A DNA stretch of 48,032 nucleotides from Candidatus Aceula meridiana (GTDB lineage Bacteria; Omnitrophota; Gorgyraeia; Zapsychrales; Aceulaceae): assembly GCA_030765185.1 (NCBI GenBank), contig JAVCDE010000033.1:138957-186988 (forward strand). Direction: 5' to 3'. The position numbers and the translations under genes were made by a program. This document shows, piece after piece, positions 27,700 to 48,032 of this stretch. The notes under the pieces are model-generated. The model did not search any database. It had not been told where the DNA came from and worked only from the letters and a program-made list of their open reading frames with translations. Positions within the stretch are counted from its first letter, which is position 1, and the number at the start of each line of letters is the position of its first letter.

Positions 27700-30600
27700 C
27701 TAGTTTAACTTCGACAAAGAATATTCACTTTCTTTTTCCATTGGCTCAAGGCCTAACATCGGCAAAACGCTATTAATAGGCGTCAAATTGATAATAACCG
27801 GAACAAAACCGTCAACGCCGTTGTTCAAGATATCCTGCATCATGACAGAATCAAATTGAATGTCAACGCCAGAACCCCTACGATTGACATTAATATTATT
27901 CATGTCAATACCCCCAGGACTAGAAATTCTCGTTGAACCAGTATCATTATGATACGACGCATAATACGTGGCACCTACGGCTTGTCCTATTTCAAGATAA
28001 GTTTGATCATCAACACCGCTATTTTCAGGTGCTGCCGGGAAATGTATTTTTATTGGCAATTTTCGTGCGTTGAGTAATTTTTGAGTTTCTGCTCTGATGA
28101 ATTCGCCTGATTCGCCAACTGTTATTCTTCCGGTAATGACGACATTCTTTATGCCCACGATGCCTGATACAGTCTGCACAAAATCAGCTAAATATTGTGG
28201 GATTTCTTCAAATACTATATGCGCTTTAATTTGTTCTTGCGGAGTGCCTACTCTCTTTTCAAACAATGCCTGCATATGTTTTAATTTTTCTTTTTCTGTG
28301 TCAAAGGCAGAGAGATCAAGTCCTTCTTTTTTCGCTAATCTGAATATCGAACGTTGTGAAATGTATTGTTGAGCTGCTCCAGGCACTTTGCTGAAAGAAT
28401 GTCCTTCGGCTCCCTTAGATATATCAATAACAATATTTCCACCTTCAGTCAAAAGCTGTGTTGAACCAATACCCATGGCTAATCCTGTGCCACCAGCTAA
28501 GCTTAACGTGTTTTCTAATTCCATATCAACCGCATTTTGTATGGCCGCGGCATCTCCGTCATTAAGAATAAATACCGGTAAATCAAATGCCTTTCTTAAT
28601 TCGTCATCAAGGCCTTTTAATACTTGCGCATCGTCACTTTTCAATCCTTCAACAACAGGGCCTAATCCTGTTAGCCTATTATTTGCAACAGCTAAATTAA
28701 CGCTAACACCCAAAGACTTTAAATCTTTTGCATCTACACCTAACTCAGACGCCTTTGCAATAACATCACTTATTATTCCTGTTATCATTGGTATATGCCC
28801 GTCCTCGGCCCAAGGATCTTTAATCTCCTTTGGCGACCACGTAACTATTTTATACGCGACAATTTTACCGTCTTTTACTACTACAGCTTTCAGGTCGCTT
28901 CCTCCGATATCAAGGCCAACCCTTGTTCCGCTTTTATCAACGTCTTCCTTCCTTACAATATTCAAATCCGATGATTTAATATTATCTAAAGAACCTTCTT
29001 CAACTCTATCAATGCTGAATTCATCTGATTCATAAACAATGTTTGAAAAACTGCCAAGAGAAGCATAGCCTTTACCTTTAGCTAATCCGCTCTTGCTTGG
29101 ATCAAAAAATATTTCATTAAAAGCGTTAAACAGAGATTCTTCAGCAGCGACCTCAACTTTGATTGCTCCGAATACGGTGAGTCTATTGTAAACTTCAAGA
29201 GCTAAGCGTTGAGCTGATCTCTCTACAGAAACGAGATCATTCTTGTCAAAACCTGGAATTGAGATATTTGCAACTTGAACAAAATTATCTGTTGGTCTTT
29301 TGAAACTTACCTTAACGTTTACAGAATTTGGAATTTCTTGTTTAACGAGTGACCTATATTCAGATAATATTTCGGTGTATTTCTTGTATAATTCGCTTTT
29401 GTTGTATACTACTTTACCTTTTGAATTAGTGGTAAACGCTTCTGGATTCTTAACGAAACGAACTCTAACTCCTTTCTCATTTTTAAGATAGGCAAGATAG
29501 TCACGATCTTCCTGTGTAATTCTTACTCTGCCCATAGGGTAATATTTACTAATTTTAAGTGTTCTGTTTTTTATACCCGCTTGAATTTTAGGTGAATTGT
29601 ATTTTGCTATCATGTCTTCTTTTGACGTTTTAAATAAATCTAATGTTGATTGATTTAGATCAGAATCTGGAGCAGGAAGTATAATGTCAGTAACAATATC
29701 TGAAAAACCATGTTTGCTGGCACCAAATTTCTTAATACTTCTATCTAATACTTCTATCTGTTCTTTTAAGCTTAAATCTTTTGTTTCAAAATCTTCAGTG
29801 AGTTTTGGGTAAAATATGGCCTTAACGCCTCTTTTATGAATGGCATCATATATTTCATCTACAACACCGCTAACTAATAGATTTGGTAGTAAACTTGTAA
29901 TCATTCCTGTCTCACCATAGGAGAATGCGTTCAAGACTCGCCTAATCATTGCCCTAACATCTTCATTAATGACTGGTTTGCTTGCATCATCTGAAAACGC
30001 TTCAAAAGACCTAACTTTTCTTGATCCAGATTTATCTAGCTTGTCGCCTCGTCCTGTTTTCTTATCTTGGACATAAACATATTTCCCGTCAGGTCCACGC
30101 TTAGCTCTTTTGAATATCATACTGCGCATTCTTGATGATAAAATTTCATCAGTAATAAATGTTTGCTCTTCAACCATACGGCTTTTTATGGCCACTTCAA
30201 CGCCGCCAATGACACTTTTATGCTCTCTAACATCTAGAGGAAGGATAATTTTCTTTGCAGCTCCTAATTTTAAAACTGTCATCCCTTCTTCTATTTCAGT
30301 AAATCGTGCTATTTCTTCATTGATAGAAACTACTAGGCCGCCTTCACCGGAGTTAAGAAACTTAACATCATTTCCTGCTATGTTTATTTTGTGAGAGGCT
30401 CCAACTTTTATTCTTATTGTCGGATTAATTGGATTTTCTTCTTTTTGTGAATCTAACCTTGTGGCCAAAACATCTCCTGAGGGTTGTACCTCCACTTTTC
30501 TGATTAAGTAATCACCATCTGATTTCTCCCCTTCTTGAGCGAATAAAACAGCTGCTTCTTCACCGTTCGCTCCCTTTACTTTCATCATGGCAGCTTCAAG

Positions 30601-33600: not shown

Positions 33601-34026
33601 CTCAGTTTTCCCCAAAGCATCAGGAACGATCCTGTCTTTTTCATAAGGAGATAGGTTGACCCATAGATCTCTCTGAGGAACAGTCATGGCTGCTAAAAAA
33701 TACTTCACCAGTCGATTAGACTCTTCTTTAATTTGATCTGGCGTAAATTTTGTATTTCCGCTATCAACAATAAAATCAAAATGAAGAGGGTTCTGAAGGT
33801 CTAAGGCCATACCTTTAAACAAGACCGGCACAAAGGCAGGGCTGGGGGCCAGCATGGTGCCCGGAACAGGAAGATTCAGCGCGCTTTGAGCGTAGGAAGG
33901 CAAGGCAGAAGACAAAAGAAAAGCAAATATAATAAGAATTGATATGGCGCGACGAAAATGCACCCAATACCTCTTGGGAGCATGAATAAAAAAATATCCT
34001 TTTTTAGGCATATTAACTAAAAACAT
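27700..34026 (-). CDS. Giant exported fusion protein: Omnitrophota-type N-terminal module, CofD/YvcK-like domain and ROK-like kinase domain
   Basis: The protein has 2108 residues. Residues ~22-47 form a signal peptide or anchor (ISILIIFAFLLSSALPSYAQ). Residues ~48-400 hold a module (LNLPVPGTMLAPSPAFVPVL; VNTFNKVWIVPQEATVFEHG) that I recall from Omnitrophota giant proteins. Residues ~420-820 are unassigned. Residues ~827-1455 resemble CofD/YvcK proteins: ILIVAGGGEGTTSFARAV, GTYDDGGDSAAVRMQI and FSYGETGMITSLLPNLLVSG. Residues ~1700-2010 are ROK/ASKHA-like: VGLDIGGSDLKAVVVKDG, LNDGDAAAIQNA (catalytic Asp) and LAGGTGLAMGIG. The ROK zinc motif CxCGxxGCxE is absent. The tail (PVIINLTPINSVLPMLGLEP) also looks like a phylum-specific ending. 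Exporting ATP/phosphate-using folds is odd; the signal could instead be a membrane anchor. Confidence 0.8.
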   Translation of the reverse strand: MFLVNMPKKGYFFIHAPKRYWVHFRRAISILIIFAFLLSSALPSYAQSALNLPVPGTMLAPSPAFVPVLFKGMALDLQNPLHFDFIVDSGNTKFTPDQIKEESNRLVKYFLAAMTVPQRDLWVNLSPYEKDRIVPDALGKTELGQDMLAQDYILKQLTASLIYPENEFGKAFWDKIYKKAYEQFGTTSIPVNTFNKVWIVPQEATVFEHGNAVYIVKSRLKVLMEEDYVALQKARSSSLIADSKISEPESKSQEFASAIVREIILPEIEREVNEGAHFALMRQVYHSLILAQWYKETIKESLLSKVYIDQRKIKGLDLNDPTLKDQIYARYVESFKKGVFDLIKVEQDQSIGRMVPRKYFSGGQEFGGIPIKRTEDPNEVTFSSTGDKGKLSVRIEPQRRSTKAGISSKKNSSSAVRKMTFNDILSNLRSELLFSYRSPEGIASVESVSIDMLASILNQHSKSDKEIMALIGLLGESFVPYEVRTEEVHVYQDGAVGTHRWETFVAKSEIETLSGNPRTNIAKEYLSKQLLRKEMLKVEVRHLSDDFWTKFPYKEVLIAELEKLSMSEDISVRQRAIRDIGLIPNDDSQESVGGMIGRWTYEATEFNSTTGELTLLNARRIKHKNGTVEPEFLINGKNDKRDIVLQTRDLNQTEKDFSDGLLDLTDLRVIIRDSEAIHHRILGVAANGLPFVREDVWKEGDLDQIREVIEHERLELTRMEHNEIRKAQVQGGLSDLITQLLAKDKEEWEFPIVKTHVATGITERIAKEAENFTKKLLKNEKIIKKAMKFESAVTGRPEYAVLHGIMGRNRDNNHDDSWSMAKRGRGPRGPPSKILIVAGGGEGTTSFARAVAADAKKDKTYQQVKEEYEGVNTPKAIGAINSGTYDDGGDSAAVRMQIHDSGRWANNVSGLAGDEMSLNVYMTDDNAKIDVLEDGFRMKGLVNINTARKDDLMYIVDEATADRILAMRKRLIASGKEFTKDIDTDEIVELKEEQEKAVNDNSTQTIAIDPKTYRLIKNQFRTEGDHKVSVLEFVKEKILKTQKKIESGEFKQPEDWYFFVNNMIGMAVIVEEYLKKTHDLRLVGTKWQNLVDLAIRIDAGYITPGSTEIDDLKQMGKLYEALGIPYGYTRKVSTDDATMVAILEAAMMKVKGANGEEAAVLFAQEGEKSDGDYLIRKVEVQPSGDVLATRLDSQKEENPINPTIRIKVGASHKINIAGNDVKFLNSGEGGLVVSINEEIARFTEIEEGMTVLKLGAAKKIILPLDVREHKSVIGGVEVAIKSRMVEEQTFITDEILSSRMRSMIFKRAKRGPDGKYVYVQDKKTGRGDKLDKSGSRKVRSFEAFSDDASKPVINEDVRAMIRRVLNAFSYGETGMITSLLPNLLVSGVVDEIYDAIHKRGVKAIFYPKLTEDFETKDLSLKEQIEVLDRSIKKFGASKHGFSDIVTDIILPAPDSDLNQSTLDLFKTSKEDMIAKYNSPKIQAGIKNRTLKISKYYPMGRVRITQEDRDYLAYLKNEKGVRVRFVKNPEAFTTNSKGKVVYNKSELYKKYTEILSEYRSLVKQEIPNSVNVKVSFKRPTDNFVQVANISIPGFDKNDLVSVERSAQRLALEVYNRLTVFGAIKVEVAAEESLFNAFNEIFFDPSKSGLAKGKGYASLGSFSNIVYESDEFSIDRVEEGSLDNIKSSDLNIVRKEDVDKSGTRVGLDIGGSDLKAVVVKDGKIVAYKIVTWSPKEIKDPWAEDGHIPMITGIISDVIAKASELGVDAKDLKSLGVSVNLAVANNRLTGLGPVVEGLKSDDAQVLKGLDDELRKAFDLPVFILNDGDAAAIQNAVDMELENTLSLAGGTGLAMGIGSTQLLTEGGNIVIDISKGAEGHSFSKVPGAAQQYISQRSIFRLAKKEGLDLSAFDTEKEKLKHMQALFEKRVGTPQEQIKAHIVFEEIPQYLADFVQTVSGIVGIKNVVITGRITVGESGEFIRAETQKLLNARKLPIKIHFPAAPENSGVDDQTYLEIGQAVGATYYASYHNDTGSTRISSPGGIDMNNINVNRRGSGVDIQFDSVMMQDILNNGVDGFVPVIINLTPINSVLPMLGLEPMEKESEYSLSKLN

Positions 34027-34861: not shown

Positions 34862-35905
34862 TCATCTTTTCTTTAAGAAATGCGGAGAATCACCCCACTG
34901 GTTATAGCCAATCTCCTCACCAATAGAATCTATACGCTGCGACAAACAATCACGGCACAAAGATGCATTCTCATCAAGACAAGGCTTATCTTCATACAAT
35001 TGATAAAACTTACGATATTTCGTATGCGTTATATTGGGCATGATAATATTTGCCCCACTCTGCAGCCCCATCTCCCTACCAGATAAACTCAATGCCTGCA
35101 AAGCTGTTGTTGCTGCGATATTAACATCTTGCAAATGAATACGAGTCAAAGCAATCATTTTTAACCCTAGCTCTAAATTCTTTTTTCTAATATCTTCCTG
35201 TATGCTTTCGGCCAAAGGAGTATCTTTATGCACAAGGTAAGGACCCATCCCTATCATATCGATATCTTTATCCTTAAAAAATAAAATATCATCAGCTAAA
35301 TCTTCGACCGTCTGATAAGGTAATCCAATCATAACGCCTGTTCCAACCTGATAGCCTACTTTTCGTAAAACCTCTAAACAATTTAAACGTTCAGAAAAAC
35401 TATGATCTGCTGGATGTAATTCTTCATAAAGCTTCGAATTAGATGTTTCAATACGCAATAAATAACGATGCGCGCCGGCATCAAACCACCGCTGATAAGT
35501 TTCTTGTGTTTGTTCTCCCAAAGAAAGCGTAATCCCAAGAGAATTATTGCTATCGCGTAAGGCTTTGATTTCACGAACAACATCTTCAACAAAATCAACA
35601 AATTCTAAATCGGTGCGCTCTCCGGACTGCAAGACAAGTGAGCCATATTGCATATCCAAAGCGCTTTTGGATGACTCAAGAATTTCTTGTTTTGACATTA
35701 AAAAACGTTCAACACGAGCATTAGACTTACGAATACCACAATACAAGCAATCTTTCTGACAGATATTGCTTAGCTCAATGATTCCTCGAAAAAATACATG
35801 ATTACCGACATTCTTTAATTTGACGGCATAGGCTCGCAGATACAATTCTTTCAGGCGCCTCGGGTCTTCTTCCTTTAGCCACCGAATAATTTCGCTTCTA
35901 TCCAT
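34862..35905 (-). CDS. hydE: [FeFe]-hydrogenase maturase HydE (radical SAM)
   Basis: HydE takes part in building the [2Fe] subcluster of the H-cluster. It works with HydG and HydF, acting on the iron-cysteine synthon made by HydG. It has 347 residues, the normal length. The radical-SAM cysteines are Cys49, Cys53 and Cys56 in LSNICQKDCLYCGIRKSN. Other family segments are LQSGERTDLEFVDFVE and SLGEQTQETYQRWFDAGAHR, followed by MGPYLVHKDTPLAES. The C-terminal cysteines (CLDENASLCRDC) could hold the second, non-essential cluster found in some HydE. It follows hydG by nine bases. Confidence 0.96.
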   Translation of the reverse strand: MDRSEIIRWLKEEDPRRLKELYLRAYAVKLKNVGNHVFFRGIIELSNICQKDCLYCGIRKSNARVERFLMSKQEILESSKSALDMQYGSLVLQSGERTDLEFVDFVEDVVREIKALRDSNNSLGITLSLGEQTQETYQRWFDAGAHRYLLRIETSNSKLYEELHPADHSFSERLNCLEVLRKVGYQVGTGVMIGLPYQTVEDLADDILFFKDKDIDMIGMGPYLVHKDTPLAESIQEDIRKKNLELGLKMIALTRIHLQDVNIAATTALQALSLSGREMGLQSGANIIMPNITHTKYRKFYQLYEDKPCLDENASLCRDCLSQRIDSIGEEIGYNQWGDSPHFLKKR

Positions 35906-35914
35906 TCTTGCCCC

Positions 35915-37411
35915 TTAGATGTACAAATCTCTTTCACCTTGTTTTGTTCTTTCATAATAATCTTGAAAAAGCTCAAACACTTTCGGGTATTTTTCTTTAA
36001 CCTCAGCAATTTCTTTTTTAATAATAGACTCTGCTTTTTTACGAGTTTTTTCAGAAGCAAAATCATCTAGCCATTCACGAAAAGTAATAATAGCATTCAG
36101 CTTGCAAAACTTACCTTCCTCTCCCTTACGGAGCAAGTCCATAATGCACTTTCCTGTTCTTCCGCAGCGATAACCAGCAGTACAAAAAGACGTAATGTGT
36201 CCCTTATCAACAAACTCACAAATCAATTCATCTAAGGAGCGTGTATCCCCTAAAATAAACTGCTGTTTTTCTTGCACCTGTTCTTTTTCCTCTTTTTGAT
36301 AACTGCCAACTCCAATTTTAGAAGAGGCATCCATTTGTGTTACACCCAAGTCAATTGATTCTCCCCGAATATCTGCCGGTTCCCGCGCAGTAATAATCAT
36401 CCCCACATGCGGTATCGCCAGACGCAGAACAAGAATAATCTTTTTGAAATCCTCATCACTGACACGGTATTTTTCGTATTCTTTCATGTTCGCATTTAAA
36501 GCCGGCTCCAGGCGCGGAAACGAGACAGTATGCGGCCCAATTCCAAAACGTGCCTCTAGTTCCAAAGAATGTTTGACCAATGCTAATAAATCAAACCGCC
36601 AGTCATAGAGCCCAAACAGCACACCAATACCCACATCATCAATGCCTGCCTCAAACGCCCGGTGCATAGAATAAAGACGCCAATCATAATTACCCTTAAT
36701 CGTATTAACAGGATGAACTTTGTTATAAGTTTCACGATGATAGGTCTCTTGAAAAACTTGATACGTACCAATGCCAACGCTGCTGATTTCTTTTAAGTCC
36801 TCAATTGAAAATGGTGGGGCATTAACATTAACCCGTCTGATATTACCGTATCCTTTGCGTGTTTTAATTTTTACATCATAAATAGCTTGAATACTTTCTT
36901 TAATATAATCCACGTCATTGTGAGGATGTTCGCCATAAACAACGATCAATCGTTTGTGTCCAATTTTCCCTGCTAAGGCCTCAACCTCTTTTCTAATTTC
37001 TTCAGGATTTAAAACCTTTCTTTGCGCCTCAGTATTCTCAGCCTTAAATCCACAATAAAGACAATTATTAACACAATAATTTCCCAAGTACAAAGGAGCA
37101 AAAGTTACAATACGGTTATCATATACTTTTTTTTTAACTTCAAACGCTGTCTTTTTCATCTCGTCTAAAAGCTGCGGGTCCTCAACAGCTATCAAGGCAG
37201 CAGCTTCTTCAAGCGTAAGATTCTCGATACGCAATGATTTTTGCAGCAACCTTCGAATATATTCAGGACGAGGCTCCTTATTCTTTTCCAACGTGGAGTA
37301 AATCTCCTGCTCATCAATAAAATTCTTTCCATCAACTAAATATTTCTTTATCTGATCTTTCTTGATTCTTTTATTTATCCAGCGATGCTCTTTATCGGCG
37401 TAGGTCTTCAT
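35915..37411 (-). CDS. hydG: [FeFe]-hydrogenase maturase HydG (radical SAM tyrosine lyase)
   Basis: HydG splits tyrosine to give the CO and CN- ligands of the H-cluster. It has 498 residues, the full length including the C-terminal extension. The radical-SAM motif is GNYCVNNCLYCGFKAEN. Family segments are VVYGEHPHNDVDYI and VFQETYHRETYNKVHP, then IPHVGMIITAREPADIRGE. The C-terminal second-cluster domain has TAGYRCGRTGKCIMDLL followed by a third cysteine in EGKFCKLNA, the CX2CX22C-type site that holds the dangler iron. It overlaps hydF by ATGA. Confidence 0.97.
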   Translation of the reverse strand: MKTYADKEHRWINKRIKKDQIKKYLVDGKNFIDEQEIYSTLEKNKEPRPEYIRRLLQKSLRIENLTLEEAAALIAVEDPQLLDEMKKTAFEVKKKVYDNRIVTFAPLYLGNYCVNNCLYCGFKAENTEAQRKVLNPEEIRKEVEALAGKIGHKRLIVVYGEHPHNDVDYIKESIQAIYDVKIKTRKGYGNIRRVNVNAPPFSIEDLKEISSVGIGTYQVFQETYHRETYNKVHPVNTIKGNYDWRLYSMHRAFEAGIDDVGIGVLFGLYDWRFDLLALVKHSLELEARFGIGPHTVSFPRLEPALNANMKEYEKYRVSDEDFKKIILVLRLAIPHVGMIITAREPADIRGESIDLGVTQMDASSKIGVGSYQKEEKEQVQEKQQFILGDTRSLDELICEFVDKGHITSFCTAGYRCGRTGKCIMDLLRKGEEGKFCKLNAIITFREWLDDFASEKTRKKAESIIKKEIAEVKEKYPKVFELFQDYYERTKQGERDLYI

Positions 37412-38679
37412 GCCGCTACCTTTTTCTTTTTTATTTGAGCAATCTCTTGCGCAAACACGAGAGATGCAGGTTTAAATGGCTCTAAAACACGTTCTAAAAC
37501 ACCTTGCGTATAAGAAATACACACTCCATAATTCGTGATGGGAACTCCATTTGCTTTTGCCTGCTCAATGCGATAAACAGACTCTTTACGATTAAGCATA
37601 CAGCTGCCGCATTGAATAATAAGTTTATATTCTTTTATATTCTCGGGAAGGTCTCTCCCCGAGAAAACATCAATCTTTAAATCCGCCTGGGTATATTCTT
37701 TAAGCCAACGTGGAATTTTTACTCTGCCGATATCATCCTCAATTGCGTGATGCGTGCAACCTTCAAGAATTAAAATCTTATCACCTGACATTAAACTTTC
37801 GATAGCTACTGCTCCACGAGCCATCTCGACGAGATCTGATTTAAAACGCGCGAACAAAATAGAAAAAGTTGTGCAGTTGATACCTTCAGGCGTTTCTGCC
37901 ACCATTTTATCAACGACCTGAGAATCACAAATAACAATATCCGGTGGTGTTTTTAACTTTTTAAGCGCATGAGCATACTCACTTTCTTTAACAACCCAGG
38001 CGGACGCATCATTGTCCAAAGCATCACGGATAGTTTGCACCTGTGGCAAGATAATCCTTCCTTTAGGAGCTTCCAAGTCAATGGGCACAATCAACATAGC
38101 TAGGCCGTTTTTGGGCAACAAATCGCCGATCAAAAAAGGTTTTACTAAAAAATCATCAGGCGTAGCTTCTATCAAGACGACTTTAAACTGATTAACATAT
38201 TCATCGCGTTTTTCTTTTCTTATGCTGCTAACAAACATCAGGCGTCGCGAATATTCTTTTATCTTCTCAAGAAATTCATCTCTTAGCTCATCAGAGTCAA
38301 CCTTGTTCACAACAACAATCAAAGGTGTGTTGCGCTTATTCGCTTCAGCGGCAATATTGACCTCAAACTCCGTCCACTTATTTGGTTCAAGAATTAATAA
38401 AACAACATCTGCACGGCGGAAAACATTCTTTGTCTTTTCAATTCTTTTTTTAGCTAATACGGATTCATCATCAATTCCGGCTGTATCTAAAAACACGACC
38501 GGCCCGATAGGAAGCAATTCCATGGTTTTTTCAACCACATCTGTGGTCGTGCCTGGATGATGCGAAATGATTGAGACATCTTGGCCTGTTACCATATTAA
38601 GAAAAGAAGATTTCCCGACGTTAGTACGACCAAAGAGACCAATGTGCAAGCGCAATGATTTAGGTGTGTTCTCCATCAC
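37408..38679 (-). CDS. hydF: [FeFe]-hydrogenase maturation GTPase HydF
   Basis: HydF is the scaffold on which the [2Fe] subcluster is completed and passed to apo-HydA. It has 423 residues. The N-terminal GTPase domain has G1 GRTNVGKSSFLNMVTG, a G2 threonine in HHPGTTTDVV, G3 DTAGIDD and G4 NKVDSD. A dimerisation domain follows. The C-terminal cluster domain has CTHHAIEDDIGRVKIPRWL and LIIQCGSCMLNRKE with the conserved His and Cys ligands, then ITNYGVCISYTQG. A stem of AGCCAAAGC/GCTTTTGGCT type lies in the 35 bases before it. Confidence 0.97.
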   Translation of the reverse strand: MMENTPKSLRLHIGLFGRTNVGKSSFLNMVTGQDVSIISHHPGTTTDVVEKTMELLPIGPVVFLDTAGIDDESVLAKKRIEKTKNVFRRADVVLLILEPNKWTEFEVNIAAEANKRNTPLIVVVNKVDSDELRDEFLEKIKEYSRRLMFVSSIRKEKRDEYVNQFKVVLIEATPDDFLVKPFLIGDLLPKNGLAMLIVPIDLEAPKGRIILPQVQTIRDALDNDASAWVVKESEYAHALKKLKTPPDIVICDSQVVDKMVAETPEGINCTTFSILFARFKSDLVEMARGAVAIESLMSGDKILILEGCTHHAIEDDIGRVKIPRWLKEYTQADLKIDVFSGRDLPENIKEYKLIIQCGSCMLNRKESVYRIEQAKANGVPITNYGVCISYTQGVLERVLEPFKPASLVFAQEIAQIKKKKVAA

Positions 38680-38714: not shown

Positions 38715-38966
38715 TTATTTGCTTTTGGCTAACGCTGACTTGACTTCAACTCCCTCAAGAGTGCCCAGCTTTCCTGTTAAGCCACCGAGTTCATCTGTGT
38801 TCATATCCACAACGAGAGTTATGACAAAACAATGCTTTTCTTCATAAGGAATCCCAACACGCGCCCGAATATGATCCCCATAATCGGATAAAACATGATT
38901 TACCTTATCGGCGCTTTTGCGCCTATCCTCAATAATAATTCCTACAAATCCTAATCTTCTCTCCAT
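38715..38966 (-). CDS. TM1266-type iron-only hydrogenase system regulator
   Basis: This 83-residue ACT-like (ferredoxin-like fold) protein starts MERRLGFVGIIIEDR and continues with VNHVLSDYGDHIRARVGIPY and TLVVDMNTDELGGLTGKLG. This matches the TM1266 family, which is found almost only beside [FeFe]-hydrogenase maturation genes. It is presumed to sense a small ligand or modulate maturation. It has no DNA-binding helix, so it probably acts on proteins. A full terminator hairpin separates it from the receiver gene upstream, and AAGGAGGAG gives a strong start site. Confidence 0.9.
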   Translation of the reverse strand: MERRLGFVGIIIEDRRKSADKVNHVLSDYGDHIRARVGIPYEEKHCFVITLVVDMNTDELGGLTGKLGTLEGVEVKSALAKSK

Positions 38967-39111: not shown

Positions 39112-39498
39112 CTATCCGTTAATGTACTTCTCTATAACTTCCAAAAACTTTTCAGGGTCGATTGGCTTTTCAATAAAAGCCTTGGCTGGAATAAGCTTCT
39201 CTCCTGTTTCATAATTATAAGCACTATAACCAATCTTTTTAACGCCAGAAACAATAATAAAAGGAATCTTTTTTAACTCTTCATCAGAGTTAAACTGCTT
39301 ACCGACATCTAATCCCTCACCGGCATCAGTCATCATAACGTCTAGCGTAATAAGATCTGGCTTTTCTGCCTTTGCCTTTTTGATTCCTTCAATGCCATTA
39401 GATGCTGTAATAACCGTATAATCCTTAGCCTCTAGTAAAGTCGTTACCGCTGCTACAAAATCAGGGTCATCATCGATTATCAATACTTTCTTGCTCAT
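39112..39498 (-). CDS. Stand-alone response-regulator receiver domain
   Basis: This 128-residue protein is a single REC domain: VLIIDDDPDF (acidic pocket), phospho-acceptor Asp53 in LITLDVMMTD, a Ser/Thr position in IIVSGVK and the conserved Lys in FIEKPID. It has no output domain. It is clearly similar to the receiver half of the REC-NuoE fusion in the same operon (LLEA.DY.V.TA.NG.EG, followed by the EKP.DPE ending), so the two arose by duplication. It may be a phosphate sink or a protein-binding regulator of the hydrogenase. The start has AGGAGG six bases upstream. The 88 bases before it hold an AT-rich stem but no clear promoter. Confidence 0.93.
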   Translation of the reverse strand: MSKKVLIIDDDPDFVAAVTTLLEAKDYTVITASNGIEGIKKAKAEKPDLITLDVMMTDAGEGLDVGKQFNSDEELKKIPFIIVSGVKKIGYSAYNYETGEKLIPAKAFIEKPIDPEKFLEVIEKYING

Positions 39499-39586: not shown

Positions 39587-41332
39587 TTATTTCTTATATT
39601 CTGGCCTTGGCACATATTTTGTATGCAAAAGATGATGTGCCTTTTCACTTAAGGGAGCATCTAAAAAATCCTTGTACAGCTTCTTAATAAAAGGATTGTC
39701 ATGAGAACACCTGGCCTCGCAATTAGCATCATCCTCATACAAACCTTTAGCGCGAATAGCCCTAATCTCATCAGTTACCCCATATGGCTGACCACCTCCG
39801 CCAACACACCCTCCAGGACAGGCCATAACTTCAACAAAATGATAAGGCAAAGGGTCATCATTTTCTTTTGCCTTTTTAATTTTATTAAGAACATACTCCA
39901 CGTTACCTATCCCATGAGCAACGGCAATCTTCACCTCAATGCCATTAACACTAACTGAAGTTTCTTTAACACCTTTTAACCCTCTAACATTCTCAAACTC
40001 CACCTTAGAAAGTTTTTCTTTTGTAATCAAATGATGCGCTGTTCTTAAAGCTGCTTCCATGACGCCACCTGTTGCACCAAAAATAGTTCCTGCGCCCGAA
40101 TAATCACCCATAAGATGATCAGGTTCTTCATCAGTCAAAGAATTAAAATCAATTCCTGCCTGTTTGATCATGCGAATAATTTCCCGAGTCGTTAACACAC
40201 AATCTGTCCCTTGATATCCAGAAGCAAACATTTCTTCTGTCCGGGTGATCTCATATTTCTTCGCCGTACAAGGCATAATCGATATAACTCGCATCTTAGC
40301 CGGATCAATATTATTCTCTTTAGCATAGTATGTCTTACATAACGTGCTCATAATCTCCTGTGGTGATTTTGCAGAAGAAAAATGCTCTATCATTTCAGAA
40401 TGAAATTTTTCCATAAAGTCTACCCATGCCGGGCAACAGGTCGTAATTAAAGGAAGGACCCCTTTTTTGTTAACAAAACGCTCTACAAATTCGCTAGCTT
40501 CCTCCATGATCGTAACGTCTGCAGAAAAATTAGTATCAAAAACCGTATTAAACCCTAATCTTCTTAGTGCTGCATAAATCTTTTTTGTCAAATTGGTTCC
40601 AGGAGGATACCCAAAGCCTTCTCCTATCGCCACGCGAACCGAAGGTGCAATTTGAACAACACAATACGTATCCGGATTTAACAACTCTCTCCAAACTTCT
40701 CGGGTTTGATCAAATTCAAAAATCGCACCTGTTGGGCAATGCGCAGAACATTGGCCGCAACGAATACAAGGAGATTCGCTTAATTTAATATCTCCGGCTG
40801 GAGCCATGCGCGTGTTAATCCCTCTTTCTAAAAAGGATAGCGCCCAAACATTTTGCACATTCTGGCAAACTTCAATACAGCGTCCACAACCGATACACTT
40901 AGATGGTTCAAGTTCGATTGTTTTAGTTGATGAATCTTTAGGAAGCTTCCGTGTAATTTTGTTAAACGATTCCTGGCGAATACCAAAATCAGCAGCAATC
41001 GTCTGAAGCTCACAATCATTATTGCGTCCACAAGTCAAACAATCATTAGGATGATTTGACAAAATAAGCTCAATAATTGTACGTCTAATCTCAACCAGCT
41101 CAGGATCATGGGTAATGATCTTCATGCCGTCTTCAAGCGCGGTACAGCAGGCTCTTAGCATTTTTTTAGAACCCTCAACCTTAACAACACAAATGCCGCA
41201 AGCTGCAGTGGCCGGAAGGTCTTCATGCTTGCAAAGCGTTGGAATTTTCACCTGCACCTGCTCGGCAACCTCAAGAATAGTTTTCCCTGGTTCAAATTCT
41301 ACTTGAACATTATTAATATATGCTTTTGCCAT
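39587..41332 (-). CDS. hydA: [FeFe]-hydrogenase catalytic subunit (NAD-linked, bifurcating type)
   Basis: This subunit makes or oxidises H2 at the H-cluster. It has 581 residues with the domains in order. A [2Fe-2S] ferredoxin domain contains CKHEDLPATAACGICVVKVE and is followed by the His-Cys3 cluster HPNDCLTCGRNNDCELQ. Two [4Fe-4S] sites are CIGCGRCIEVCQ and CIRCGQCSAHCPTGAI. The H-domain carries TTCCPAWVDFMEKF, MPCTAKKYE and EVMACPGGCVGGGGQP. The length and N-terminal clusters match the HydA subunit of trimeric or tetrameric electron-bifurcating hydrogenases (HndD type). It lies 15 bases after the NuoF-like gene. Confidence 0.97.
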   Translation of the reverse strand: MAKAYINNVQVEFEPGKTILEVAEQVQVKIPTLCKHEDLPATAACGICVVKVEGSKKMLRACCTALEDGMKIITHDPELVEIRRTIIELILSNHPNDCLTCGRNNDCELQTIAADFGIRQESFNKITRKLPKDSSTKTIELEPSKCIGCGRCIEVCQNVQNVWALSFLERGINTRMAPAGDIKLSESPCIRCGQCSAHCPTGAIFEFDQTREVWRELLNPDTYCVVQIAPSVRVAIGEGFGYPPGTNLTKKIYAALRRLGFNTVFDTNFSADVTIMEEASEFVERFVNKKGVLPLITTCCPAWVDFMEKFHSEMIEHFSSAKSPQEIMSTLCKTYYAKENNIDPAKMRVISIMPCTAKKYEITRTEEMFASGYQGTDCVLTTREIIRMIKQAGIDFNSLTDEEPDHLMGDYSGAGTIFGATGGVMEAALRTAHHLITKEKLSKVEFENVRGLKGVKETSVSVNGIEVKIAVAHGIGNVEYVLNKIKKAKENDDPLPYHFVEVMACPGGCVGGGGQPYGVTDEIRAIRAKGLYEDDANCEARCSHDNPFIKKLYKDFLDAPLSEKAHHLLHTKYVPRPEYKK

Positions 41333-41346
41333 AAAGTAAAATCTCC

Positions 41347-43095
41347 TTAATTATTTCCTCGACTAATAGCTTCAAATTTACACACCTCATAGCATTTTCC
41401 ACATTTAATGCATTTTTCTTGAATAATTTTATACCCTTCGTCTTTATCGCCGACAATTGCATCAACCGGACAATTTCTTTTACACAAACCACAACGACGG
41501 CATTTTTCTTCAATAACTTTATACTCATATAAAGATTCACATTTTCCGGCAGTGCATTTTTTGTGCTCAATGTGATCAATATACTCATTTTCAAAGTATT
41601 TTAAAGTCGACATGACTGGGTTAGGCGCTGTTTGTCCTAAACCACAAAGCGAAGCCTTTTGCATTGTATGAGAAATGGTTTTAAGCTTTTCAATGTGCTC
41701 CTGGGTGCCTTTACCTTCAGAAATTTCAGTAAGCAAATCTAGCATCTGCTTTCCACCAATTCTACACGGAGCACATTTTCCGCAGGACTCATCTACACAA
41801 AACTTTAAATAAAACTTCGCAATATCTACCATACAGTCGTCTTCATCCATAACAATCATTCCACCAGACCCCATAATAGAACCTAAATTCTGAAGATTTT
41901 CATAATCAATCGGCGTATCAAAAAATTTCTCTGGAATGACACCGCCTGAAGGGCCACCGGTCTGTACCGCTTTAATATTTTTATTATCTGGGACACCTCC
42001 CCCTATGTCATAAACAATTTCTCTAAATGTAATCCCCATGGGAACTTCGATTAGACTAGAATTTGCAATTTTACCGGTTAAAGCAAAAACTTTTGTTCCT
42101 TTTGATTTTTCTGTGCCAATTTTTGCAAGCCAATCCCCACCCTTACAAATAATTGGCGCAACACTGGAAAGTGTTTCTACGTTATTAATAACAGTGGGTT
42201 TGCCCCATAGACCGATTACAGAAGGATATGGTGGCCTTGGGACTGGACACCCTCTTTTGCCTTCAATCGAAGCGATGAGTGCGGTTTCTTCACCGCAGAC
42301 AAAAGCGCCTGCTCCTAAACGTATTTCTAGCTCAAACGAAAAATCTGTTCCTAAAATATTTTGCCCAAGCAATCCTTTTTCTCGTGCTTGGCTTAAAGCT
42401 AAGTTCACCCTAAGAATCGCTAATGGATATTCCGCTCGAATATAAAAATATCCCTTTTTTGCCCCAATGGCAAAACCTGCGATAATCATACCTTCAACAA
42501 CAGTATGAGGATCACCTTCTAAAACACTGCGGTCCATATAAGCACCCGGGTCTCCCTCGTCTGCATTGCAGATAATAAATTTTGTCTCATTGTCCTGTTC
42601 TTTGGCAAAATTCCATTTCATCCAGGTAGGAAAACCTCCTCCTCCACGCCCGCGCAAACCACTCTTTTTAATTTCTTCAATCACCTTATCTCGGTCATCT
42701 AATTCTAATACCTTCTTTAGGCCAAGATAACCGTCTGCAGCCAGATAATCCTCTATATTTTCAGGATCGACATTACCACAATTTCTAAGCACAATCCGAA
42801 TCTGCTTATCTTCAGGCTTAGCTAAAATCTCTTTAACAATATCATTATTTTTGATTGATTTACGAATAATCATATCGATATCTTTTTCATTCACATTAAC
42901 ATATGTAATGTCACTGGGCATAATCCTGACAACAACACCCTGGTTATAAATATTAATATCCGCAGCCCTGACAACCTGTGCTTGCTCATCTAAAGCTCGG
43001 TCTCGTAAAGCTGAATTAAACAACTCGGCGAAGCGGACAGTTTCCTTATTGTTGGCTGTATCTTTAACAAGAATTATTTTTTTAAGCTTCCCCAT
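41347..43095 (-). CDS. hydB: NADH-binding hydrogenase subunit, NuoF/HndC type
   Basis: This is the flavin subunit that binds NAD(H) and FMN and, in bifurcating enzymes, splits electrons between NAD+ and ferredoxin. It has 582 residues. FMN/NADH motifs are SGLRGRGGGGFPTWMKW, CNADEGDPGAYMDR, GAGAFVCGEETALIASIEG and NNVETLSSV. The NuoF-type [4Fe-4S] site is ESCGKCAPCRIG. Two extra [4Fe-4S] sites close the protein (CRRCGLCKRNCPVDAI and CIKCGKCYEVCKFEAI). The N-terminal ~120 residues look like a thioredoxin-fold domain but have lost the cluster cysteines. It overlaps the HndB-like gene by 14 bases. Confidence 0.96.
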   Translation of the reverse strand: MGKLKKIILVKDTANNKETVRFAELFNSALRDRALDEQAQVVRAADINIYNQGVVVRIMPSDITYVNVNEKDIDMIIRKSIKNNDIVKEILAKPEDKQIRIVLRNCGNVDPENIEDYLAADGYLGLKKVLELDDRDKVIEEIKKSGLRGRGGGGFPTWMKWNFAKEQDNETKFIICNADEGDPGAYMDRSVLEGDPHTVVEGMIIAGFAIGAKKGYFYIRAEYPLAILRVNLALSQAREKGLLGQNILGTDFSFELEIRLGAGAFVCGEETALIASIEGKRGCPVPRPPYPSVIGLWGKPTVINNVETLSSVAPIICKGGDWLAKIGTEKSKGTKVFALTGKIANSSLIEVPMGITFREIVYDIGGGVPDNKNIKAVQTGGPSGGVIPEKFFDTPIDYENLQNLGSIMGSGGMIVMDEDDCMVDIAKFYLKFCVDESCGKCAPCRIGGKQMLDLLTEISEGKGTQEHIEKLKTISHTMQKASLCGLGQTAPNPVMSTLKYFENEYIDHIEHKKCTAGKCESLYEYKVIEEKCRRCGLCKRNCPVDAIVGDKDEGYKIIQEKCIKCGKCYEVCKFEAISRGNN

Positions 43096-43453
43096 TGTCC
43101 TCTTCCTTTATTATTGAATAGATATGATCATCGATTAATTGTTTAGCCATCACATGCTTTTGAACAATTTTTTCAGCCGTATCCTTGTCAACGCCGCCAT
43201 AGACAACACGCGCCACACCTTCAGCCTTAACCTCCACTAAAGGTTCAGCATAACATTTACCAGCACAACCTGTTCTAAAAACAGAAACATCCAGCTTATT
43301 TTCTTTAACGGCTTTCTGAATTGTTTCAAAAACAACATCAGCACCGGCGGCAATGCCACAAGTACTTAGTCCTACCTTGATCCAATTTTTATTTTTGGGC
43401 TTACCGCTTTTGGATTCTTGTTCAAAATTATCTATTGTTAATTTCATCGTCAT
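43082..43453 (-). CDS. HndB-like [2Fe-2S] thioredoxin-fold subunit
   Basis: This 123-residue protein has WIKVGLSTCGIAAGADVVFE and FRTGCAGKCYAEPLVEV, which together give the four cysteines of a thioredoxin-like [2Fe-2S] ferredoxin. Proteins of this type (HndB; HydD-like) occur between the NuoE- and NuoF-like subunits in NAD(P)-linked hydrogenase operons and relay electrons. Its presence explains why the N-terminal thioredoxin-like domain of the NuoF-type subunit has no cysteines. The gene starts 9 bases after the REC-NuoE fusion. Confidence 0.92.
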   Translation of the reverse strand: MTMKLTIDNFEQESKSGKPKNKNWIKVGLSTCGIAAGADVVFETIQKAVKENKLDVSVFRTGCAGKCYAEPLVEVKAEGVARVVYGGVDKDTAEKIVQKHVMAKQLIDDHIYSIIKEEDNGEA

Positions 43454-43462
43454 CCCCTCTTA

Positions 43463-44338
43463 TCAAGCAACGTTAACAGTTTGATTGTTATATTTAGAAA
43501 TAATCTCAAGCAGATCACCAGGCTTAAGATTACCATATATCTTACCGTCAATCATAATAACTGGAGCTAAACCACAGCACCCCAAACAGCGCACACTTGA
43601 AAGCTGAAACATACCATCTTTGGTTACTTCGCCTTCTTCAATATTAAGAATATTTTTTATCTCTTTCAATAGCTGCGGAGACCCTTTGAGATAACACGCC
43701 GTTCCCATACAAACTGAAATGACATGCTTGCCTGGTTTTTCTAGCTTAAAATAATGATAAAAAGAAATAACTTCATAAATCCTTGCTAAAGGAATTCCTA
43801 AACAGCGCGACAAATCAAAAGAAACATCGCGGGGAATATAGCCATAATGATTTTCCACCTCATGCAAAACCATAATCAGATTACCTTCTTTTCCTTCCCA
43901 TTTCTTAATAAGCTGCTCGATCATAGACAAATTTTCATAATGCTCAGAACTTTTCTTAGATAAAAAGAAACTGATTTTTTTTATTAAATCTTCAGGATCA
44001 ACGGGCTTCTCCATGATCGCTTTGATAGGCAACTTGTCATTGTCTGGCTTCAGCTCAAAAGAAAAAGAGTGCTCTTTTCTGGCCCCAGTAATCATAATAA
44101 TAGGAATATCTTTCACTGCGGCATCTGCCGCAATAGCCTTAGCGGTTTCCGCCCCTTCAGTTTTATAGGTCATCATCATGTCTAAAAGAATAAGATCAGG
44201 CAGTTCCTTTTTGACTTTATGAAAACCTTCCTGGCCGTTATTTGCCGTCAGGACCTGATAATCATGGGCCTCTAACAAAAGCTTGGTTGCGTCCACAAAA
44301 TCGCAATCATCATCAATAATTAAAATCTTATGTTGCAT
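43463..44338 (-). CDS. Receiver domain fused to NuoE-type hydrogenase subunit
   Basis: The protein has 291 residues and two domains in one open frame. Residues 1-~128 are a complete REC domain: LIIDDDCDF, phospho-acceptor Asp53 in LILLDMMMTY, IMITGA and the lysine in AIMEKPVDPE. Residues ~137-285 are a NuoE/HydC [2Fe-2S] thioredoxin-like subunit (NHYGYIPRDVSFDLSRCLGI, ISVCMGTACYLKGS, SSVRCLGCCGLAPV) with all four cluster cysteines. NuoE-type subunits normally have no receiver. The neighbours are the sensor kinase upstream and HndB/NuoF subunits downstream, so the fusion places a phospho-switch directly on an electron-transfer subunit of the hydrogenase. The regulatory role is inference. Confidence 0.95.
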   Translation of the reverse strand: MQHKILIIDDDCDFVDATKLLLEAHDYQVLTANNGQEGFHKVKKELPDLILLDMMMTYKTEGAETAKAIAADAAVKDIPIIMITGARKEHSFSFELKPDNDKLPIKAIMEKPVDPEDLIKKISFFLSKKSSEHYENLSMIEQLIKKWEGKEGNLIMVLHEVENHYGYIPRDVSFDLSRCLGIPLARIYEVISFYHYFKLEKPGKHVISVCMGTACYLKGSPQLLKEIKNILNIEEGEVTKDGMFQLSSVRCLGCCGLAPVIMIDGKIYGNLKPGDLLEIISKYNNQTVNVA

Positions 44339-44378
44339 TCTTCAATCCTCTTTTATTAGTTTATTCTTTCTATAAACT

Positions 44379-46205
44379 TTATCTTTCAATCTGAAAAATA
44401 AAAGAATTTCCGTTTTCTCTAGGCACAGCCTTGATAGAGCCACCGTGTTGTTTGACAATTTCGCTTGTAATAAATAATCCAATGCCTGTTCCTTTAATGC
44501 TTTCCATTCCTCGATAAAGAACACGTGAGAATTTCTTAAAAAGCTTACTTAAATCGCCTTCTACGATAGGAAGCCCATCATTATAAACCTCTACCTCTAC
44601 CATGTGCCCTTGAATTCGTGAATCAATACGAATCTCACCCTTAGATTTGCCGTATTTAATCGCATTGCTCAAAAGATTATTAGCAACAACTTGAAGCAAC
44701 CCAGAATCAGCAACAACTTTAAGTTCTGGATCAATGCGGTTCGTCACTCGCATTTCTTTCTCAGACGCTTGCTGTGCAAAAGCATCAACGGTAACATTAA
44801 AAACGTGCTCTTTCAAAGAAATCTCTTTTTTTGAAACTTGCAATTCATCTTTTTCAATACGACTTAAATTTAGAAAATTCTTAACCGTGACCGTTAGATA
44901 ATCTAAATTTCTCGCCATAGATTTAAGTGCTTTTTGTTGCTTTTCATTAATCGGCCCTAAAATCCCTTTATTAAACAAATATGTATTAAGAACAACAGAC
45001 GAAAGAACACCTTTAAATTCGTGAGAAACAAAACCAATCAAATCCAAATAACGCTTATTTAAAATCTCAAGGCTTTCGTTGACCACTTCTAGTTTTTCAT
45101 CCCGCTCTACCAAGGCCTCAGACATTTTATTAATCGACGATATCAGCTCGTTAAGCTCTCTTACATCAGTCTTTTCTTTTACTTTAGCTCCAAGAACGCC
45201 ATCTGATATCTTCTTGGTTGTGTTAAGTATTTTTTTCAAAGGAACAATGATAGGATTAATTATAAAAGGCATAAAAATAATCGTAATAAGCAACGTCAAG
45301 GCCATAATAAAAATTAGTTTAAAAAATAAATTCTTTTGTAATTCTGTAAAAGGTTTTTCTAGAATCCCAACATAAAGAATGCCAATAACCTCTCCGTCAA
45401 TATTATAAATCGGTTCATACGCCGTATAGTACCAATCTGTGACGACAAAAGCCTTATCCAACCATTTTCTTCCTTGATTAATAACAGTTTCATAAACCGC
45501 GCTAGAAACCCTTGTGCCTATCGCACGCTGACCGGTTTTATCCAAAACGTTTGTCGTAATACGAACGTCTCCCTGAAAAATAGTAATCGTTCCTAAAGGC
45601 TTTCCCTGATAAAAACGATTTTCATACACTGTTTCAACAATGCCATCAATAAACTTATAATTTCTATTTAAAACTTTCCCACCAACTAAAATCTTATCAA
45701 GATGTCCTGTCGTCATCATAAAGGGCTTTGCGTATTCCAAGGCCATCACGCTATCTAATTGATCTTTATCCGTTGGCAAGGCTTTCGGCGTAGGCTTAAT
45801 CTTGATTCCTTCGACTCTTCCCTTGATTCTTTCAATCTGTTCTTTAGGGATAATTCTGACAGCCCCGACGTCCTGCGTAGTCTCATCAACTCTTAAAACA
45901 ATTTTGCTCGCCTCTTTATTAATCTTATCTTTAGGAACCCAGTATAAATAATCCAAATCCAAATAATTTCGCAATAATCCTAAGTCATCATCCGCATCAA
46001 TTAAATTAAATGCCATCTGCATCTGCTGAAATTGTTGATTATATAAAACATGCACAATTTCGAGATCCTTGCTTGCCCTATGCTGCGCAGTTTTTAAAAT
46101 GTTATTCTTAATAACAAGATATCCAAACACACTCATGCATAAACTCAACAGCAAAATAATGCTAAGCAAAATAAACATTATTTTTGTTCTTAATTTAACA
46201 ATCAT
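44379..46205 (-). CDS. Membrane sensor histidine kinase with Cache domain
   Basis: The protein has 608 residues. A membrane helix lies at ~9-31. An extracytoplasmic single-Cache-3-like domain at ~35-290 includes GQRAIGTRVSSAVYETVI and DWYYTAYEPIYNIDGEVIGI. The second helix is at ~292-318, followed by HAMP and a coiled coil to ~380. The HisKA domain has His395 in GFVSHEFKGVLSS. The ATPase domain has an N-box in LLQVVANNLLSNAIKYG and GTGIGLFITSEIV. The G1 box is unusual: VYNDGLPIVEGDL in place of DxGxG. The only receiver domains in the locus are the REC-NuoE fusion, 40 bases downstream, and the small REC protein; these are its likely partners. Confidence 0.93.
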   Translation of the reverse strand: MIVKLRTKIMFILLSIILLLSLCMSVFGYLVIKNNILKTAQHRASKDLEIVHVLYNQQFQQMQMAFNLIDADDDLGLLRNYLDLDYLYWVPKDKINKEASKIVLRVDETTQDVGAVRIIPKEQIERIKGRVEGIKIKPTPKALPTDKDQLDSVMALEYAKPFMMTTGHLDKILVGGKVLNRNYKFIDGIVETVYENRFYQGKPLGTITIFQGDVRITTNVLDKTGQRAIGTRVSSAVYETVINQGRKWLDKAFVVTDWYYTAYEPIYNIDGEVIGILYVGILEKPFTELQKNLFFKLIFIMALTLLITIIFMPFIINPIIVPLKKILNTTKKISDGVLGAKVKEKTDVRELNELISSINKMSEALVERDEKLEVVNESLEILNKRYLDLIGFVSHEFKGVLSSVVLNTYLFNKGILGPINEKQQKALKSMARNLDYLTVTVKNFLNLSRIEKDELQVSKKEISLKEHVFNVTVDAFAQQASEKEMRVTNRIDPELKVVADSGLLQVVANNLLSNAIKYGKSKGEIRIDSRIQGHMVEVEVYNDGLPIVEGDLSKLFKKFSRVLYRGMESIKGTGIGLFITSEIVKQHGGSIKAVPRENGNSFIFQIER

Positions 46206-46209
46206 ACCA

Positions 46210-46839
46210 TCAGGTCCTTTTCTTTTTTAAAGACTTTACAAAATATGCAATGGACTCTAGCTCAATTTTAAGATTCATATCATTAATATAAAAATTCTTC
46301 GGTGCTTTTAAAGCAATAGGAGCAAAATTCATAACGCCCTTAATTCCTGCTAAAATCATAATATCCAAAACCTGTTGCGCAGAGTGATATGGAACCGCAA
46401 TAACCCCAAGCTCAATTTTATTTTCATTAATAAAACCGTATAGTTGCTCTAACGCTAAAACCGGCGGCTTTGCCTTCTCATTCTGTGCCTTAGAGTCATT
46501 GTCAAAAAGGGCTACAATCTCAAGTCCTCCCTCACGGAAACCGTCGTACTTCATTAAAGCCTTCCCGATGTTTCCTGCACCAACAATAATAACTTTTTGC
46601 TTTTCATCTTTTTTCAGGACATCGTTCAACTGCTTAAGAAGCTCATCGACTTTATACCCGGCTCTTTTGTTTCCTGATAATCCAAATATAGAAAAATCTT
46701 TTCTTACTTGAATTGATGTTGTCCCAAGATTCTCTGCAAAATCATCTGAAAAAATACTTTCTTTCCCAAGCTTCTTTGAACGAATCAAGAAATCTCGGTA
46801 TTGAAAAAGCCTTAAAACGCTTTGTTTCACTAAAATCAC
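46210..46839 (-). CDS. rex: Redox-sensing transcriptional repressor Rex
   Basis: Rex represses fermentation and hydrogenase genes and leaves DNA when the NADH/NAD+ ratio is high. It has 209 residues. The N-terminal winged helix contains FAENLGTTSIQVRKDFSIFG and GNKRAGYKVDELL. The Rossmann domain has VIIVGAGNIGKALMKYDGF and LEIVALFDNDSK. The C-terminal swap helix ends with MNLKIELESIAYFVKSLKK. The start is a GTG with AAAGGA six bases upstream; no ATG fits better. It leads the hydrogenase operon and is followed by the kinase gene after 4 bases, so Rex should control its own operon through the site at 46911. Confidence 0.95.
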   Translation of the reverse strand: MILVKQSVLRLFQYRDFLIRSKKLGKESIFSDDFAENLGTTSIQVRKDFSIFGLSGNKRAGYKVDELLKQLNDVLKKDEKQKVIIVGAGNIGKALMKYDGFREGGLEIVALFDNDSKAQNEKAKPPVLALEQLYGFINENKIELGVIAVPYHSAQQVLDIMILAGIKGVMNFAPIALKAPKNFYINDMNLKIELESIAYFVKSLKKKRT

Positions 46840-47065: not shown

Positions 47066-47359
47066 ATGAATAAATGTTTCAAAGAAAGGCTTTCTGAGCT
47101 AATCGCTAAATATGACCCGATAAACAACCGGAATCTGTGCCCTAATCAACCCAGCAAGAAGAACATACGTGATTATCGCCTCCCTATCCCCGGAACAACA
47201 ATACATAAGAAATACAAGGGCCAAGCTCATATTATTTTAGTCTTAAAGGACAACTTTGAATACAAGCAAAGACGCTATAAATCTCTATCTGCCATTGCCA
47301 GAAAAATCACCGGGAGTCATTGGAATGGCTATGGATTTTTTGGATTGGAAAAACGATGA
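47066..47359 (+). CDS. DUF2924 protein (recombinase-associated)
   Basis: This 97-residue basic protein ends with the DUF2924 signature: LPIPGTTIHKKYKGQAHIIL, then FEYKQRRYKSLSAIARKITG and SHWNGYGFFGL. Family members are usually encoded directly before a large serine recombinase in integrated elements and are assumed to help it, for example in DNA binding. The ATG is chosen because AAAGGAG lies eight bases upstream. A TTG two codons earlier would be too close to it. The stop overlaps the recombinase start by ATGA. TTGCTA-18-TATATA near 46990-47020 may be its promoter. Confidence 0.9.
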   Translation: MNKCFKERLSELIAKYDPINNRNLCPNQPSKKNIRDYRLPIPGTTIHKKYKGQAHIILVLKDNFEYKQRRYKSLSAIARKITGSHWNGYGFFGLEKR

Positions 47360-48032
47360 ATTCTTCGACAAGCTCAAAACAAGTCCCTCCAAGAAAACAG
47401 ATAGTTAAATGCGCTATTTATACCCGCAAATCCACACAGGAAGGGCTTGATCAAGAGTTTACTACGCTAGACGCCCAACGTGAGTCTGCCGAAAATTATA
47501 TTGCCAGTCAAAAATCTCAAGGATGGATTACCCTGCCGGAAAAATACGATGATGGCGGTTTCACAGGCTCTAACATTGAACGCCCCGCAGTACAACGCCT
47601 CTTAAAAGACATCGCTGACGGTAAAATTGATTGTGTGATTGTTTATAAAGTCGATCGTCTTTCGCGCTCCCTTTTGGATTTTACACGATTGTTGGGAACT
47701 TTTGAACAAAACAATGTCACGTTTGTTTCGGTGACACAACACTTTAATACCAACAGCTCCATGGGACGATTAACGCTTAACATCCTTCTGTCCTTCGCGC
47801 AATTTGAACGTGAAATGATTAGCGAGCGCACTGCTGATAAAATAGGCGCTGCCCGCCGTAAAGGCAAATATACCGGAGGATGTCCAACCCTTGGCTTTAA
47901 TGTGAACAAAGAAAAACATACACTTATTATTAATCCAAAAGAAGCCGCCTTAGTTCAGCATATCTTTGACCTCTACATCAAGGAGCAATCTCTGCTAAAA
48001 GTAGCCGAGGTAGTTAACTCACAAGGCTACCG
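47356..48032 (+). CDS. Large serine recombinase, N-terminal part (runs off the right edge)
   Basis: About 225 residues are visible. The resolvase catalytic domain is complete: CAIYTRKSTQEG with the nucleophilic serine, DAQRESAENYI, YDDGGFTGSNIERPAVQRLL, CVIVYKVDRLSRSLLDF and FAQFEREMISERTADKIGAA with the catalytic arginines. The DNA-binding 'Recombinase' domain begins at about residue 170 (GKYTGGCPTLGFNVNKEK, VQHIFDLYIKEQSLLKVAEV). This fits a large serine integrase, or the group often found with DUF2924 in integrated elements. The frame is open at base 48032. An attachment site should lie nearby but cannot be identified from one end. Confidence 0.95.
   Translation, partial: MNSSTSSKQVPPRKQIVKCAIYTRKSTQEGLDQEFTTLDAQRESAENYIASQKSQGWITLPEKYDDGGFTGSNIERPAVQRLLKDIADGKIDCVIVYKVDRLSRSLLDFTRLLGTFEQNNVTFVSVTQHFNTNSSMGRLTLNILLSFAQFEREMISERTADKIGAARRKGKYTGGCPTLGFNVNKEKHTLIINPKEAALVQHIFDLYIKEQSLLKVAEVVNSQGY

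Follow-up and report, generated by a model that had tools for sequence, protein, structure and literature searches.

A receiver domain built into HydC and a candidate two-component control of a bifurcating-type [FeFe] hydrogenase in Omnitrophota

Discussions of how bifurcating hydrogenases are controlled usually centre on transcription, with the redox-sensing repressor Rex as an example. Receiver (REC) domains with an output at the level of protein are in turn familiar from single-domain response regulators such as CheY and DivK and from enzyme-linked ones of the CheB and PleD type. Signalling genes near hydC are not new either, as the bifurcating-hydrogenase operon of Acetobacterium woodii carries a kinase-like gene adjoining hydC, hydE (Awo_c27000), whose product is described as an ATP-binding domain only (PMC10472528) and is reported to be absent from the active enzyme and possibly to serve assembly or signalling (PMC3315566). 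HydE-like HATPase_c proteins of about 180-196 aa, with no HisKA, Cache or REC match, are also found between the NuoE and 2Fe-2S protein genes of Chitinispirillales and Termititenax hydrogenase operons (L026:8460-9047 and L038:8482-9018). Finally, hydrogenase and histidine kinase (HK) genes share one cluster in the group C sensory [FeFe] hydrogenases (the HK-linked C1 type and HydDB), which are proposed to act as H2 sensors that drive signalling (PMC5037454).

Here we analyse a locus of Candidatus Aceula meridiana, which belongs to a group of anaerobic bacteria that has not been cultured, contained in a stretch of 48,032 nucleotides of contig JAVCDE010000033.1 (the window), that differs from all of these. 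A complete receiver is joined to HydC, so that its putative output, although protein-level and not DNA-level as in CheY, DivK, CheB or PleD, would be an electron-transfer subunit of a multi-subunit redox enzyme, and the signal seems to run towards, not from, a hydrogenase of the catalytic group A.

The hydrogenase operon and its fused receiver

The sequence-only reading of the window had described a single open frame joining a REC domain, with Asp53 and the conserved Lys and Thr, to a NuoE/HydC subunit with four cysteines, preceded directly by a Cache-type kinase gene and embedded in a bifurcating [FeFe]-hydrogenase operon. Gene identification with Pfam and NCBIfam profiles recovers every one of these features exactly where it had been placed, and adds Rex, a free REC and a TM1266-like gene, which that reading had left out (Table 1). 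The minus-strand operon is tightly packed at its start, with gaps of 4 bp between Rex and the HK gene, 40 bp between the HK gene and the fusion, and 9 bp between the fusion and the gene for a small 2Fe-2S protein. A 2108-aa open frame for which Pfam returns only a weak ROK-family match occupies window positions 27700-34026 (-).

Table 1. Genes of the window operon, listed in operon order
Feature	Window positions	Strand	Basis
Rex redox-sensing repressor, first gene of the operon	46210-46839	-	NF003996, 220.6 bits (cut-off 138)
Membrane sensor HK (Cache, HAMP, HisKA, HATPase_c), 608 aa	44379-46205	-	Pfam and structure model
REC-NuoE (REC-HydC) fusion, 291 aa, single open frame	43463-44338	-	Pfam, full-length homologous fusions
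Small thioredoxin-like [2Fe-2S] protein	43082-43453	-	PF01257, at cut-off
HydB/NuoF, FMN/NADH subunit with C-terminal 2x[4Fe-4S] domain	41347-43095	-	Pfam/NCBIfam
HydA, [FeFe]-hydrogenase catalytic subunit, NADH-dependent group A6	39587-41332	-	NF040763, above cut-off
Free single-domain REC (REC2), no output domain; D, T/S and K intact	39112-39498	-	Best NCBIfam match DVU0259 family, below cut-off
TM1266-like putative iron-only hydrogenase system regulator	38715-38966	-	PF21699
HydF maturation GTPase	37408-38679	-	Profile match
HydG radical SAM maturase	35915-37411	-	Profile match
HydE radical SAM maturase	34862-35905	-	Profile match

By the features tested, the hydrogenase is an ordinary HydABC-type member, with the same HydA, HydB and HydC subunits as the structurally characterized bifurcating enzymes of Thermotoga maritima (7p5h), A. 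woodii (7q4v) and Thermoanaerobacter kivui (8a6t). HydA scores 782.1 bits against the profile of the NADH-dependent group A6 (NF040763, cut-off 765) and has A. woodii HydA1 (7q4v) as its closest solved structure, HydB combines the FMN/NADH module with a C-terminal 2x[4Fe-4S] domain, and HydC retains its four cysteines. Bifurcation in the window enzyme is predicted by homology, namely from the group A6 HydA and the C-terminal dicluster ferredoxin domain of HydB. The same group A6 assignment led us to reject an HK-linked sensory (group C) hydrogenase.

What sets the complex apart from the HydABC structures is the REC on HydC, and no PDB chain among the matches listed spans both the REC and the NuoE part. 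Pfam delimits a Response_reg domain at residues 5-122 (E 4e-17, 62.8 bits) and a 2Fe-2S_thioredx domain at residues 140-283 (E 6e-47). The REC part (residues 1-123) has the REC fold and all phospho-site residues of a response regulator, namely the acidic pair D9 and D10, the acceptor D53, T84 and K111, and can, judged by these motifs, be called phosphorylatable. Its best response-regulator match in NCBIfam is the DVU0259 family (NF045717), which is also the best match of the free REC, yet at 63.7 and 85.3 bits, respectively, both domains fall below the cut-off of 160. In the NuoE part, C210, C215, C251 and C255, plus C254, are invariant in all 38 aligned proteins, and the linker that separates the REC from the NuoE core has a nearly fixed length, with 37 residues in 21 of 23 sequences and 38 in the other two. 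In an AlphaFold2 model of the fusion (pLDDT 82, pTM 0.58) the NuoE part superimposes on T. maritima HydC (7p5h_C) with a TM-score of 0.88 by target length, and REC helix alpha5 (residues 115-128) runs nearly end to end with the first NuoE helix (residues 130-147), the placement of the REC relative to NuoE being not well fixed at this pTM.

The sensor kinase and its probable pairing with the receiver

The kinase encoded upstream of the fusion has sCache_3_3 and HAMP domains and matches HATPase_c above cut-off and HisKA at 23.4 bits, just below the cut-off of 26.9 that is exceeded by its orthologue in locus L124. Its H-box (HEFKG) with the phosphorylatable His, its HATPase_c domain and a transmembrane sensor, the last predicted from the hydrophobic N terminus and the Cache-HAMP layout, are those of a HisKA sensor kinase. 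The fourth residue after the H-box His, usually a Thr or Asn that serves phosphatase activity in HisKA kinases, is Gly in 17 of 18 aligned kinases and Ser in one; as kinases without this motif exist, we retain the HisKA assignment, and the kinase may be one-directional.

A confident model (pLDDT 91) of the sensor, which is encoded at window 45324-46100, displays a two-lobed Cache domain, whose membrane-proximal lobe resembles chemoreceptor domains solved as formate complexes (8py1 and 8py0) both in sequence (E 1e-8, approximately 22-24% identity) and in fold. By this analogy formate is the best candidate ligand, to be taken as a lead only, and would be a sensible cue for a hydrogenase. A search for pyruvate formate-lyase as a formate source found no such gene in any of the 22 genomes tested, the window genome included, so formate, if it is the signal, would have another origin. 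The nearest Spirochaete kinase (L146:5436-8407), of the same Cache type and 32% identical, adjoins a NuoEF/formate-dehydrogenase-like cluster and two other response regulators in a locus without REC-NuoE, a possible link to formate. Sensing of an external ligand, as suggested previously, therefore fits the Cache domain of the window kinase, but does not extend to three relatives (G232, G285 and G461), in which the kinase is reduced to HisKA and HATPase alone (approximately 229-249 aa), has no sensor or membrane part, and is still encoded directly upstream of REC-NuoE (L123:7098-7844, L124:9493-10179 and L141:469-1155).

The sequence-only reading had called for a search for REC+NuoE architectures and their kinase neighbours in other genomes. 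We find the fusion in 24, nearly all of them Omnitrophota and one from Auribacterota (L007). In 18 of the 23 loci analysed the HK gene immediately precedes the fusion within one contig; it has this position also in the 24th genome (G461), and in G040 it sits at the end of another contig. Among 36 Omnitrophota genomes, an HK orthologue is present in 16, comprising 14 with the fusion and two (G120 and G294) with free REC genes beside an unfused NuoE; it is absent from four fused genomes, from one with no close NuoE (G002), and from 15 with an unfused NuoE and no such REC seen, some of which were read for about 1.5 kb of flank or for the match alone. In the Auribacterota-level group of 44 genomes to which L007 belongs, strong orthologues (E <= 1e-100) occur in six, the same six that have hydrogenase-linked RECs, and G491 yields weak matches only. 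The readable loci of this group follow the order Rex, HK, hydrogenase genes, free REC, which indicates that the module also occurs without the fusion, and that the fusion reveals the receiver's partner.

As HK and REC-NuoE are neighbours, their co-occurrence is partly linkage. Kinase-core distances correlate with those of the REC at r 0.80 and with those of NuoE from the same polypeptide at r 0.60, and when HydAB is controlled for, the partial correlations are 0.68 for HK-REC and 0.27 for HK-NuoE; the permutation p of this comparison ignores shared ancestry and deserves little weight. HK and REC distances hence covary beyond the operon background. Adjacency, co-occurrence, distance covariation and the REC decay described below together make the proposed pairing of kinase and fused REC highly probable, and from their evolutionary coupling we infer phosphotransfer between the two. 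The earlier picture was nevertheless incomplete: with Rex, the TM1266-like gene and the free REC in the same operon, transcriptional control is also present, and the free REC offers the HK another possible target. None of the operon's genes encodes a response regulator that carries an output domain.

Several loci vary this arrangement. The free REC gene after hydA is present in about half of the fused loci. In six loci (L118 and L120-L124, from G233, G171, G158, G263, G232 and G285) the kinase gene is immediately preceded by a second hydrogenase operon, Rex-REC-NuoE-HydB-HydA (the last of about 640 aa), whose REC is encoded on its own beside NuoE, and one kinase may serve two hydrogenases. Tandem free REC genes, the second highly diverged, stand between two hydrogenase gene sets at L128:8184-8996 and L130:8503-9312.

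We propose, as the best explanation and with somewhat better than even confidence, a dedicated two-component system acting directly on a bifurcating-type [FeFe] hydrogenase; direct post-translational control of the enzyme is, on balance, probable. The Cache kinase would autophosphorylate at its H-box His upon triggering by an extracytoplasmic small molecule, with formate as the best lead, and pass the phosphoryl group to D53 of the REC joined to the N-terminal helical domain of HydC/NuoE, with the free REC encoded behind hydA as a probable second acceptor. Once phosphorylated, the fused REC would change its alpha4-beta5-alpha5 face and, through the near-continuity of alpha5 with the first NuoE helix, bias the position of HydC, whose C-terminal [2Fe-2S] domain would act as a moving gate and thereby change hydrogenase activity or electron routing. 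For the related NiFe-HydABCSL, it has been proposed that the corresponding domain gates low-potential electrons by its movement (PMC8880783), and the HydC cluster has been proposed to matter for bifurcation in T. maritima HydABC (PMC9499530); by model and analogy, a REC on the N-terminal domain of HydC would be well placed to bias such a movement. The choice among effects on activity, routing and assembly is provisional, as are the direction of the effect, the gating mechanism and the ligand.

The phosphorylated REC could instead serve for docking or dimerisation, and so control the oligomerisation of HydABC or its tethering to the membrane kinase, while leaving the redox core allosterically unchanged. 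REC domains commonly act in this manner, T. maritima HydABC is a dodecamer (PMC9499530), the kinase carries a membrane-spanning sensor in 16 of 18 aligned loci, and the coupled evolution of HK and REC would fit equally well. We nevertheless regard this alternative as rather unlikely, because the fixed linker suggests rigid coupling and because the fusion is retained beside all three sensorless kinases, G232 and G285 preserving an intact motif, which means that tethering to the membrane is not a general feature.

Receiver decay in lineages without the kinase

Four fused loci (G030, G032, G036 and G267) lack an orthologous HK both at the locus and in the whole assembly, and in two of them (G032 and G267) the fusion directly follows Rex within one contig. 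Using a fixed tree built from HydA and HydB, we compared the REC tip branch with the NuoE tip branch of the same polypeptide. The median ratio is 3.3 for the four kinase-less proteins and 0.87 for the 19 that have the kinase (p 8e-4, one-sided), and tip branches of NuoE relative to HydAB do not change between the two sets (p 0.31). Within the kinase-less fusion proteins, the REC therefore evolves approximately 3-4 times faster than the NuoE part, which is itself unaffected. Phospho-sites are damaged in three of the four (D53E and D10A in G032, T84I and D10N in G267, D9V and D10N in G036), whereas D9, D53, T/S84 and K111 are kept in all 19 kinase-positive proteins. Within a single genus, G049 has the kinase, the free REC and an intact site, and G032 has none of the three. 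The exceptions are G030, where the HK is lost and the motif retained, G006, where the HK is present with D10N, and L125, where the REC is fast (ratio 2.0) despite the HK. Two to three of three phylogenetically independent pairs go in the expected direction, the rest being tied and none opposite; with only 3-4 independent kinase losses, these are too few for a tree-aware sign test to reach significance. As the kinase-loss lineages keep the hydrogenase, the switch is dispensable.

The free REC after hydA is also missing from all four kinase-less loci examined, which would suit a reversed flow of information, where the NuoE [2Fe-2S] cluster reports redox state to the kinase or the free REC, REC-NuoE serves as redox input or phosphate sink, and the output proceeds via the free REC. 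The Gly (in one case Ser) at the phosphatase position would point the same way, in that phosphoryl removal may depend on REC partners. The free REC, however, likewise lacks an output domain, and it is missing from the vicinity of the fusion in several HK-positive loci (G006, G033), which makes this scheme improbable. Still less probable is that the REC is a structural passenger replacing an N-terminal extension of HydC, its motifs persisting by inertia and the kinase serving another regulator: fusions with damaged phospho-sites do persist after kinase loss, so the enzyme can exist without phosphorylation, but the conservation of D9, D53, T/S84 and K111 in all 19 kinase-positive proteins and fast REC evolution almost exclusively where the kinase is gone both speak against mere inertia.

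Origin of the fusion and its implications

Omnitrophota with the full-length fusion span at least seven families of one class, and the fusion proteins, the Auribacterota one included, are 51-80% identical to that of the window. Of 384 genomes drawn from the phylum, 20 encode the full-length fusion, one more has it split at contig ends, and approximately 50 have an unfused close relative. An assembly or gene-calling artefact, which the split gene of G030 might bring to mind, is rejected as next to impossible, since relatives in 24 genomes carry the fusion independently and without internal stops. All fused RECs form a single clade apart from every free REC with 100/100 support, for which one fusion event followed by later transfer is the simplest reading. 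In the operon tree the window groups with families f5 and f36 and the Auribacterota copy and not with its genus-mate G001, and a resolvase-type recombinase gene lies beyond Rex (window 47320-48030, +) and continues past the window edge; together the two fit horizontal transfer of the operon. Further afield, a profile of 38 fused and unfused proteins, with which fusions are expected to rank first, returned no uninterrupted REC+NuoE frame among the matches listed for 247 genomes of the Syntrophobacterales-containing phylum, 249 at the Bacillota level and 16 at the Elusimicrobia level.

The earlier statement that no hydrogenase with a receiver in its NuoE subunit had been described agrees with our search of the open-access literature, in which we found no description combining NuoE, a REC or receiver, and a hydrogenase; as far as that literature goes, a bona fide two-component pair whose receiver forms part of HydC is new. 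More tentatively, and with somewhat less than even confidence, the locus may be the first example of an electron-bifurcating, energy-conserving enzyme in which phosphorylation of an aspartate in a built-in receiver gates the flow of electrons in real time, under the control of a dedicated kinase responding to an external metabolite, for instance formate.

These data suggest that an outside signal switches the hydrogenase directly, instead of or besides its gene. If so, two-component signalling would have a redox enzyme complex as its direct output, and bifurcation would gain an engineered handle, in which a phosphorylation or BeF3 switch could trap the moving HydC states seen by cryo-EM. For the organisms themselves, it would mean that cells living at the thermodynamic edge could shift electrons between H2, NADH and ferredoxin in a matter of seconds as their surroundings change.
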